Source: Candidatus Nanoarchaeia archaeon (GTDB taxonomy: Archaea > Nanobdellota > Nanobdellia > SCGC-AAA011-G17 > JAFCDX01). Taken from it: a stretch of DNA of 64,000 bases. Positions 27,056 through 48,966 of this stretch are shown here, piece by piece. Position numbers and translations under genes: made by a program. Below the pieces are notes generated by a model. It did no database searches. It was not told the origin of the DNA and saw only the letters and a program-made list of their open reading frames with translations. Each line of letters opens with the position of its first letter. Positions within the stretch are counted from its first letter, which is position 1. The DNA lies in contig JAQUOT010000002.1 in NCBI GenBank assembly GCA_028716945.1, positions 124,001-188,000 of the forward strand. The letters run 5' to 3'.

Positions 27056-27126
27056 CTTTTTATACATTAATTTATCTTAAAATTTAAGAGGTGTGAGCCT
27101 CAGAAGTCTTTTTCTGAGATATTAAA
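27056..27126 (+). promoter_or_regulatory. Promoter and two-hairpin leader (copy 1)
   Basis: TTTTTATACA (about 27056-27065) predicts a start near 27087. The leader then consists of GAGG (27088-27091), CCTC (27098-27101) and the 7-bp hairpin CTCAGAA/TTCTGAG (27099-27105 with 27112-27118), followed by ATATTAAA and ATG at 27127. GAGG-CCTC and CTCAGAA-TTCTGAG cannot form together. The same layout occurs before 48330. Confidence 0.6.
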
Positions 27127-28074
27127 ATGAATAAGAAAATTAAAAGAATAATAAATATAATGATAGGTCTGCTTTTAGTAGGATATACCTTTACAGCAGG
27201 ATACAGTTTTTATACTAACTTTAAAAAGAGAGAATTAAAAAAAGAACTTATTAGAAATTTAGGAACTATAGAAAAACCAACCTATTTTATTCAAGAAAGT
27301 TTTGTTCCTTTAAAAGATTTTTCTTTGTTTAAAAAAGATGAAATTATTATTGCTAAAGAAACATTTAACTTATTGACTGGAAAAGAATTTCCAAAAGCAG
27401 TTGATTTTGAAAAAATAAATGAAAATCCTATAAAACTAGGTTGGGTTGGAAGGTATTATCAAGATCAATTAAAAATAAAGTATGTGGATTCTGGAAAAGG
27501 AAAAAATTTAGATACCTTAGTTCATGAAATGGGGCACATGATGGTACAACATGATGAAATTCCTTTAGAAAATATTTTTTCATTATATGATGAATTAAGT
27601 TATAATTTTGAGAAAGCAGAGGATATATTTAAACTAGGAAAAAATAAAAGGGTTTTAGAAGAAGCCGCTGCTTATGCTTATACTAATGCAGTATTTGATT
27701 ATTTACTTAAACAAGGAGTTTCCCAAGAAAAAAATAAAGAAATTTCTGAAGGATTTCAAGAAATATTTGAAGCTAAACTCTTTTTTAAAATAGAGATGGA
27801 GAGTAGAACAAACACTTTTTATATTAAAGGAAATAACGAAGAACATTATAAAGGAGCAGCATTATTTTATGCTACAGAAAAGGTAATTAAAAATCCATAT
27901 AACACCTTTAATTATTTAGCAACACTAAAAGATTCTGATTTAAATAACTTAGATTATAGAATAAAAGAACAAATGATACATGATGAGATATTTTTCTTGG
28001 AAGAAAATGTTAGAAGTCTTTACAAAGAAATATTTAAAATGGAAATAAAATTAAAAGAAAAAAATGACAGATAA
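27127..28074 (+). CDS. Membrane-anchored HExxH metallopeptidase-like protein
   Basis: 315 residues. One N-terminal transmembrane helix (about 9-28) is followed by a soluble domain with 'LDTLVHEMGHMMVQH' (H133, E134, H137) and a later 'VLEEAAAYAY' whose E178 or E179 could be the third zinc ligand (gluzincin layout). Probably an extracellular zinc protease. Its last codons overlap the start of the cysteine-rich protein at 28064 by 11 nt. Leader structure suggests translational control. Confidence 0.72.
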   Translation: MNKKIKRIINIMIGLLLVGYTFTAGYSFYTNFKKRELKKELIRNLGTIEKPTYFIQESFVPLKDFSLFKKDEIIIAKETFNLLTGKEFPKAVDFEKINENPIKLGWVGRYYQDQLKIKYVDSGKGKNLDTLVHEMGHMMVQHDEIPLENIFSLYDELSYNFEKAEDIFKLGKNKRVLEEAAAYAYTNAVFDYLLKQGVSQEKNKEISEGFQEIFEAKLFFKIEMESRTNTFYIKGNNEEHYKGAALFYATEKVIKNPYNTFNYLATLKDSDLNNLDYRIKEQMIHDEIFFLEENVRSLYKEIFKMEIKLKEKNDR

Positions 28075-47041: not shown

Positions 47042-47542
47042 TTTAAATTTTTTTATTATTCCCCAATCTTGTATCTTTTTAGATAAGTCAATCTCTTCAA
47101 TTTTAAATTTTATACCTGATAAACTTACTTTCTCTCCCGGAATATACTTTTCTTTTAATTCCATTAAAGTCATATGGGGATTATAATTGGCTTCTCTGAA
47201 AGTTTTATCATATTCTCCTGCAAATTTTCTAGTTCTTTCAAGGATTTTATAATGTAAATTTAATATTTCTTCATTTCTTTCTAATTTAAGTACCAAACAA
47301 TTAGGATTTCTAATATCATCAAATATTTCAAGATCTTTAGTTACTAACTCAAAAGGTTTAATTGATAAACTTTCTAAAGAAGTTATAAGCTCATCTTCAT
47401 ATTTTTCATCACAAGAAAAATTAAATAAAGTACAATGTAAAAATTTATTATCTTTTAAAATGTCTTTATAAATTAAATTTTTATATTCATTTATCTTTTT
47501 AAAAAGTTCTTTTGATGGATTTAAATGCACTAAATATTTCAT
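47033..47542 (-). CDS. 2H phosphoesterase (LigT/2'-5' RNA ligase-like)
   Basis: 169 residues with the two H-x-T-L motifs: 'FLHCTLFNF' (H36) and 'NPHMTLMEL' (H123). 2H enzymes act on 2',3'-cyclic or 2',5' linkages of RNA or nucleotides. It overlaps the nucleotidyltransferase gene upstream by 4 nt, so the two are probably one functional unit. Confidence 0.87.
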   Translation of the reverse strand: MKYLVHLNPSKELFKKINEYKNLIYKDILKDNKFLHCTLFNFSCDEKYEDELITSLESLSIKPFELVTKDLEIFDDIRNPNCLVLKLERNEEILNLHYKILERTRKFAGEYDKTFREANYNPHMTLMELKEKYIPGEKVSLSGIKFKIEEIDLSKKIQDWGIIKKFKLN

Positions 47543-48330
47543 ATTTTAAATTCTCTTTCTCCTATCTCTGGGTATTTACAAACATATTCTTTGATCATTA
47601 ATTCAAAATCTGTTAAACTTTCAGTTAAAATAGAAATAACTATTCCTGGGTCTTTTGAAAATTTTTCTAATTTTTTTATATTTGATAATATTTGATTAGT
47701 TTCGTTAAGATAAAAAGGATCATGCCCCAATAATTCTTTTATTTTATCTTGAGCAACAAATCTTCTATCCAATAATTCTCCAGTTCTTAAGTAAATTAAT
47801 TTTTTTGGTAATCCTGTAAAAGTTTTAAGGTATCTTTCAAAGTCTTTAGCTAATACATCTTGATTTTTCTTTACATTAAATCTAGATTTTAATAAACTAT
47901 TTCTTAAAAATCTTAAATTAAAAGAAGTGCTATATAATATATTTGATTTAAAATCATGACCATTTAATTCAGATATATATTTTTCATCCCCTTTTATTAC
48001 TTTACCATGATTTTTTATCCAGTCAGTATAATCTTTGGTATAAGATAAAAATCTTCCATCTAAATTTGTTCCACGATCAAGAACATTAAATTGTTCTTCT
48101 ATCGGATGTTCTATTAAGCATTCGCATAAAGAATTGGATATATCTAACATTTTTTCTTTATCAGTTATAAATTGATTGTTAAGGATTAAGCCTCCATCAA
48201 TATCACTTCTACCATAATCACAATTTCCCGTAGTATATGAACCATATAAATAAAAGCAAACATCTTTATGATTCTTCAATTTTTTAGAAAAATCTTCTAC
48301 AAATTTATCATAATCTTCTTTTGTTAACAT
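47539..48330 (-). CDS. Nucleotidyltransferase-domain protein
   Basis: 263 residues from the ATG at 48330; an upstream TTG is less likely. 'FYLYGSYTTGNCDYGRSDID' contains G30-S31 and D43/D45, the pol-beta-type nucleotidyltransferase site. The C-terminal helical part (150-263) could be HEPN-like or a substrate domain. It may nucleotidylate RNA, protein or a small molecule. Preceded by the two-hairpin leader (copy 2) and coupled to a 2H phosphoesterase. Confidence 0.78.
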   Translation of the reverse strand: MLTKEDYDKFVEDFSKKLKNHKDVCFYLYGSYTTGNCDYGRSDIDGGLILNNQFITDKEKMLDISNSLCECLIEHPIEEQFNVLDRGTNLDGRFLSYTKDYTDWIKNHGKVIKGDEKYISELNGHDFKSNILYSTSFNLRFLRNSLLKSRFNVKKNQDVLAKDFERYLKTFTGLPKKLIYLRTGELLDRRFVAQDKIKELLGHDPFYLNETNQILSNIKKLEKFSKDPGIVISILTESLTDFELMIKEYVCKYPEIGEREFKI

Positions 48331-48371
48331 TTTCAAATATCTCAGAAAAAATCTGAGGTTTAATACCTCTT
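48331..48371 (-). promoter_or_regulatory. Two-hairpin leader (copy 2)
   Basis: Between uS7 and the nucleotidyltransferase. Minus strand: GAGG (48366-48369), CCTC (48355-48358), hairpin CTCAGA/TCTGAG (48352-48357 with 48341-48346), ATATTTGAAA and ATG. Same order and spacing as at 27088-27126. No other SD is present. Confidence 0.6.
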
Positions 48372-48372
48372 T

Positions 48373-48966
48373 TTATCTAGCACTTGAAGCTTGTCTTTCC
48401 ATTTCTAATTTCTTTGAAAGAGCGGCGCTTGTTTGATCCATATTATATGCTTTAAGGATTTCATCTGCTAAGCATGCTTCTATTGTTTTTTTAGTATTCC
48501 AAGATTTTGCATAAGCACCTTGAGTAATTAATCTCAAAACCATATCAATTCTTCTTTGGGGAGCAACTTCTACTGCTTGAGGATATTTAGCTCCACCATA
48601 TTCTATGCTTGTAACTTCTTCTCTAGGAGCAGCATTTTCCAAAGCTCTTATAAAAACTTCAACAGGATTTTGTTTAGTTTGATTTTCTACGATTTCAAAT
48701 GTTTTAATTACTGTTCTATATGCAAACTGCCATTTACCTGAGCATTGTCCAGAAGTTAATTTATGTTTTTTACCTTTGTGTCCTGGAACCATTAATTTGT
48801 TAATTAATCTTTCAATAATATTCATATAAGTTGATTTGTGGAATCTTCTAGTATTTCTACCGCAAGTTCTAGGAACTAATGTTTCTCTTAAATTAACATA
48901 TTTCTGCAATCCAATATCTTTTACAACAATTGCACTTGTATCCCATCTATCAAATAATTTTAACAT
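48373..48966 (-). CDS. rps7: 30S ribosomal protein uS7
   Basis: 197 residues, archaeal length. 'NIIERLINKLMVPGHKGKKH', 'NPVEVFIRALENAAPREEV' and 'RRIDMVLRLITQGAY' are characteristic. It binds 16S rRNA head. Follows uS12 with a 1-nt gap. In other archaea EF2 comes next; here a nucleotidyltransferase leader follows. Confidence 0.96.
   Translation of the reverse strand: MLKLFDRWDTSAIVVKDIGLQKYVNLRETLVPRTCGRNTRRFHKSTYMNIIERLINKLMVPGHKGKKHKLTSGQCSGKWQFAYRTVIKTFEIVENQTKQNPVEVFIRALENAAPREEVTSIEYGGAKYPQAVEVAPQRRIDMVLRLITQGAYAKSWNTKKTIEACLADEILKAYNMDQTSAALSKKLEMERQASSAR

Follow-up and report, generated by a model that had tools for sequence, protein, structure and literature searches.

A conserved 5' leader element of Nanoarchaeota with the form of a translational switch

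The window analyzed here, a 64,000-nt stretch of contig JAQUOT010000002.1 from the Candidatus Nanoarchaeia archaeon assembly GCA_028716945.1, carries the same short structured leader before two genes, and only these two copies of it. The initial annotation had placed the copies at 27088-27126 on the plus strand and 48331-48369 on the minus strand, and these positions held (Table 1). It had also proposed that the leader has the form of a translational switch, which the comparisons below support, with the switching itself and whatever drives it remaining matters of inference. Our reading, made without expression, probing or ligand data, is that the element is a cis-regulatory leader that switches translation initiation; we put its probability at ~0.6.

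Table 1. Features of the two element copies in the window and of the adjoining genes
Feature	Position	Strand	Remark
TATA box TTTATA	27059..27064	+	29 nt before GAGG of the 27-kb copy
SD GAGGUG, 27-kb copy	27088..27093	+	fully complementary to the 16S 3' end GGAUCACCUCCU
H1 5' strand, 27-kb copy	27088-27092	+	first five bases of SD GAGGUG
H1 3' strand GCCUC, 27-kb copy	27097..27101	+	intramolecular anti-SD
CCTCAGA, 27-kb copy	27098-27104	+	
H2 5' strand CUCAGA, 27-kb copy	27099..27104	+	CUC common to H1 and H2
H2 3' strand UCUGAG, 27-kb copy	27113..27118	+	
Gene after 27-kb copy	27127..28074	+	ATG 27127; 315 aa; HEMGH (HExxH) zinc-peptidase-like motif
SD/H1 5' strand GAGGUA, 48-kb copy	48364..48369	-	GAGG 48369-48366
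H1 3' strand ACCUC, 48-kb copy	48355..48359	-	
H2 5' strand CUCAGA, 48-kb copy	48352..48357	-	within CCTCAGA 48358-48352
H2 3' strand UCUGAG, 48-kb copy	48341..48346	-	
Gene after 48-kb copy	47539..48330	-	ATG 48330; nucleotidyltransferase-like
rps7 (uS7)	48373..48966	-	stop codon directly upstream of the 48-kb copy

Distribution and promoter context of the element

The element spans 45 bases and opens certain mRNAs of Nanoarchaeota, with the consensus AA-GAGGUG-loop1-RCCUCAGA-loop2-UCUGRG-(8-11 nt)-AUG. The pattern GAGG-N4-12-CCTCAGA-N2-12-TCTGAG occurs four times in the 804-kb genome from which the window comes, and the reversed control gave none. A covariance model trained on these four copies (with N padding, since MAFFT misaligned their loops) added two more, so that the genome holds six copies, all shortly upstream of an ATG; the four copies beyond the first two had been missed by the initial annotation. 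A pattern scan of one genome per species (84,980 species) returned 21 matches, 18 of them labelled Nanoarchaeota, Nanoarchaeia, Pacearchaeota or Woesearchaeota and one, with a complete element context, labelled Euryarchaeota SM23-78. We concluded that the element is essentially confined to Nanoarchaeota (Woese-/Pacearchaeota).

Across 378 genomes of the window's class, model R2 gave ~83 matches at E<=1e-3, a count that includes its own training sequences; the highest number for one genome (G312) was seven, at E<=0.1. Distinct copies in our collection number 99. Weak model matches that appeared to be coding sequence or truncated (L155, L168, L170-L174, L145 and L164) were left out, two of which, L145 and L164, are likely to be genuine elements on re-inspection. 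The two bacterial matches of the species scan (L057 and L058), which lack promoter and AUG context, were set aside as chance, as was the single match in a scan of viral contigs, which has neither promoter nor start-codon context.

No Rfam 15 family was matched at its gathering score, either by the window copies or by twelve further loci that were scanned with a relaxed E-value, and we found no earlier description of the element in the literature searched, which excluded most subscription journals and all preprints. We regard it as uncatalogued and claim its membership in no known RNA family.

A TATA-like hexamer lies 24-36 nt upstream of GAGG in 82 of the 99 copies (bulk 27-33 nt, peak 29-30 nt), and transcripts should therefore start at, or a few bases from, the element, so that comparison places it at the 5' end. 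That the transcript start at the 27-kb copy coincides with the element, as initially predicted, thus held as a suggestion. There is no TATA box between rps7 and the 48-kb copy, which, because it also directly follows the rps7 stop codon, is probably inside an operon; some other copies also lack a TATA box. An SD is absent from most window genes, and in many of the promoter-proximal ones a TATA box lies ~29 nt before the ATG; we infer that most promoter-proximal genes of the window are leaderless. A number of internal operon genes in the window do carry an SD of the GAGG/AGGT type. Other genes of the class have a short leader of the form AAGAGGTG-(about 5 nt)-ATG, and the element resembles such a leader in which a structure has come to separate SD from AUG. 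In 83 of 89 copies, H2 is separated from the AUG by 7-12 nt.

Two further loci (L016 and L022; G042:C32:3771 and 427) are near-identical promoter-plus-leader cassettes before unrelated genes, which, on a reading of their sequences, we take to encode a PhoU-like protein and a histidine-phosphatase-like protein. This suggests that further genes can acquire such a cassette by copying.

Conservation of the three helices

Helix 2 (H2, CUCAGA:UCUGAG) shows strong covariation. It is 97.2% paired across 97 sequences, and five of its six pairs have changed on both sides, giving variants such as CUCUAAG/CUUAGAG, CUCAAG/CUUGAG and CUUAGA/UCUAAG. We counted 20 double-change cells, versus 1.6 in shuffles, and every slid control was far lower. 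This test was favoured by an alignment that had been fitted to H2; model-free pattern searches show the same changes. The G-U states of H2 speak for an RNA rather than a DNA feature.

Side-by-side reading of the copies revealed a pairing that the initial annotation had missed and that no search or model had used, namely, that of loop 1 with loop 2 (H3; e.g., UUCAG:CUGAA, AUUCG:CGAAU, CGUG:CACG and GCAG:CUGC). Comparison shows H3 clearly: its mean duplex energy was -1.89 kcal/mol, versus -0.83+-0.11 kcal/mol in 5000 re-pairings, none of which was as low, and among 94 copies (near-duplicates removed) 46 had three Watson-Crick pairs in allowed registers, versus 12.4+-3.1 (maximum 24) in 5000 permutations. 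The in-register pairs comprise 15 different triplets within a narrow register; in the strongest registers, the strand from loop 1 directly adjoins R and that from loop 2 follows H2 after 0-1 nt. The registers were picked after the data had been seen, but the register-free energy test was equally clear; the permutation disregards relatedness, although the downstream genes are mostly unrelated. H3 is weak, with fewer than three Watson-Crick pairs in register, in about half of the copies, and it is weak in both copies in the window. In A/U-rich copies, inspection by eye also picked up pairing of loop 2 with bases close to the AUG, for which we make no claim.

Helix 1 (H1, GAGGU:RCCUC) masks the SD. 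When AAGAGGTG..CTCAG..CTGRG was searched for with the two bases before CTCAG left free, 22 places were found, versus none in the control. The base before CTCAG was C in 18 and U, which is G-U compatible, in 2 (p about 8e-10 against p=0.2), and the base before that was a purine in 21 (p about 5e-6 against p=0.5). This conserved C and purine lie outside H2. Within H2, the U of pair 2 is kept in 97 of 98 copies, though its H2 partner is A or G (18-20 U-G states), as would be expected if it also paired with the A of GAGGU. In one copy (L143), GAGG:CCUC has become AAGG:CCUU, changed on both sides together with changes in H2, and in another (L145) GAGGUG:CACCUC is kept despite an insert of ~55 nt in loop 1. 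One of the 22 places (G190, L087) has no start codon and may be chance.

A referee could object that two-sided changes in H1 are few, that a permutation test on its columns has no discriminating power because the columns hardly vary, and that three copies (L076, L111 and L132) have no good H1. The conservation of the H1-complementary bases is shown; as a helix, H1 has good support, judged from conservation, though weaker support than H2, and the conserved R and C could instead reflect loop or groove contacts inside the pseudoknot termed P below. Loss of pairing in relatives, which the initial annotation had named as grounds for refuting its proposal, was not seen, as pairing is conserved through the double-sided changes of H2 and the kept bases of H1.

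The insert just mentioned belongs to a LolD-like leader (L145/L177; G339:C6:14664-14748, minus strand) and holds GGCAAUU...AAUUGCC, whereas the LolD leader (L162) from a congeneric species lacks such an insert. An added sensor domain is one possible interpretation.

A proposed switch and its rivals

Since the strand CUC is common to both, H1 and H2 are mutually exclusive. The initial annotation had made this claim for CCTC, pairing either with GAGG or within the CTCAGA hairpin, and it held: the exclusion is conserved, and the predicted energies are near balance, with medians of -7.0 kcal/mol for H1 alone and -7.1 kcal/mol for H2 alone. The two energies co-vary (rho 0.33, p 0.001), and the gap between them is smaller than in re-paired values (p 0.005), to which the shared CUC contributes; these predictions disregard pseudoknots and real growth temperature. 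The original picture of two hairpins needs amendment, as H3 is compatible with either H1 or H2, and from sequence alone we predict two rival H-type pseudoknots. In the one formed by H2 and H3, the loops would be about 2 nt (RC), 0-1 nt and 4-5 nt (UAAUU-like and conserved), and its folding would shorten the SD-AUG spacing from 35 nt to an effective ~11 nt.

We propose that in fold P (H2 plus H3) the SD GAGGUG would be single-stranded and most of the gap to the AUG taken up by the pseudoknot, so that the 30S subunit could use the SD (ON), and that fold K (H1, with or without H3) would pair the SD with RCCUC and leave the gap to the AUG open (OFF). The shared CUC strand would force a choice between K and P, and the balance would be set by some factor, be it a metabolite, a protein, temperature or ribosome availability. 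Interconversion of K and P in cells, the assignment of P as ON and the existence of an external factor are all inferred. It is unlikely that the freed UCUGAG strand serves as a second SD; it offers only GAG/GGG and is unconvincing in that role.

The element meets the requirement of an SD-masking translational riboswitch for two conserved exclusive folds, less strongly for H1 than for H2, and without binding data. Compact translational riboswitches such as preQ1, SAM-II and fluoride share with the proposed folds a small H-type pseudoknot linked to SD access. Unlike them, the element has no Rfam match or known ligand, its targets do not form one pathway and its H3 strands vary freely. The archaeal L7Ae k-turn leaders are likewise structured 5' leaders that control translation (PMC5539422, PMC6298567), but inspection of the 99 copies, without a k-turn model, showed H2 to be a continuous Watson-Crick/G-U helix with no tandem G-A pairs, so that the element does not qualify as one. 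By analogy, we suggest a mode of action like that of SD-masking translational switches; S15/rpsO and the phage T4 split sites, both considered below, are mechanical analogues.

A first alternative, which remains possible and overlaps with the switch reading in being one way to drive the switch, is that recognition of P (or K) by an RNA-binding protein traps the 30S subunit or blocks it, as with S15 on rpsO. The anatomy is of the same kind, in that a pseudoknot at the ribosome-binding site of the Escherichia coli rpsO operator controls initiation (PMC3858243). That pseudoknot is in equilibrium with a two-hairpin fold. Diverse targets would suit a global factor, which might make contact at the UAAUU-like end of loop 2, a conserved feature. 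Against this, no candidate protein gene is recurrently linked, and the only target to recur is an exporter operon. The rpsO operator also differs in being bacterial, confined to one gene and bound by that gene's own product, whereas the element precedes many unrelated archaeal genes; nor is the SD of rpsO masked by a 5'-terminal anti-SD arrangement like that of the element. An S15/rpsO-type operator in the strict sense is not supported, as no ribosomal protein occurs among the downstream Pfam families (25 of 43 inspected).

Less likely is a static split ribosome-binding site, in which only H2 (and H3) matters, bringing a 5'-terminal SD near the AUG, and H1 is a by-product without switching. 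The precedent is in phage T4 genes 25 and 38, where structure cuts the SD-AUG distance from 27 to 11 nt and from 22 to 5 nt (PMC3014915). The element is alike in having RNA structure that shortens the effective spacing, its ~11 nt being close to the 11 nt of gene 25, and it has the defining trait of a gene 25-type split site, an intervening structure that leaves SD and AUG at a usable distance; enhanced initiation itself is inferred. One locus (L176, G182:C11) also favours this alternative, as it lacks an anti-SD and consists of TATA, AAGAGGTG, a 10-bp hairpin and ATG; it is possibly a plain split site, and the open reading frame after it has only 24 aa. However, the T4 cases are single genes for which no anti-SD strand or alternative fold is described, and a static site leaves unexplained why CC and the purine at or before the start of CUC are conserved outside H2, why the U of H2 pair 2 is practically never C despite its U-G states, and why H1 shows the covariation in L143 and persists across the insertion in L145.

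An RNA thermometer, in which warming would melt the weak 5-bp hairpin H1, would fit the marginal, balanced stabilities but is very unlikely, as a simple thermometer needs no covarying H2 and H3 and exclusive folds of similar stability would melt together. A DNA-level element, be it a terminator or an inverted repeat to which a transcription factor binds, is suggested by the position just after a TATA box and by the palindrome-like repeat of H2 but is all but excluded by covariation with G-U pairs and the loop1:loop2 pairing, which are RNA properties, by the promoterless 48-kb copy, by the absence of a U-tract after H2 and by the fixed distance to the AUG.

Downstream genes and a possible regulon

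The names first given to the two window genes held in part. The "metallopeptidase" has the HEMGH motif and is likely to be membrane anchored, but its product matched no Pfam family, and the "nucleotidyltransferase" has only a weak Polbeta/NTP_transf_2 match (Polbeta E 3e-4, below the curated cut-off). The element-bearing genes of this genome are unrelated, as they encode these two proteins, family-less proteins and one that we take, from its sequence only, to be NUDIX-like.

Most of the 88 downstream proteins examined have no family. LolD-type ABC ATPases from different genomes account for nine (L054, L063, L076, L099, L117, L162, L019, L023 and L082) and CARDB proteins for two more, and several of these genes are followed by genes for a CARDB-like secreted protein and a MacB/FtsX-type permease. 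The LolD/MacB-type exporter operon is thus the sole recurrent target. None of the seven ABC-domain matches over the cut-off in the window's genome is at an element site. The spread of targets is suggestive of a general signal rather than a single pathway. In one DPANN assembly, the element precedes a gene that is probably the set's single sigma-70 region 2/4 match (L129, G375:C64:9317), and contamination or transfer is possible there.

A bolder reading, to which we give slightly less than even odds, is that the element represents an orphan class of riboswitch or riboregulator restricted to Nanoarchaeota, with two alternative H-type pseudoknots sharing H3 and CUC. It would act, through an unidentified factor, on a stress or envelope regulon that has the LolD/CARDB/MacB exporter among its members. 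If true, such a leader would exist in archaea in which leaders are otherwise rare. For these archaea, which have small genomes and are mostly uncultured, the literature searched yielded no description of a structured element of translational control. The element, if confirmed, would be a compact natural case of two competing pseudoknots sharing one helix. Its architecture is testable and recurs across families, marking a regulon of largely unknown genes, and it offers a handle on the signal common to the genes downstream of it.
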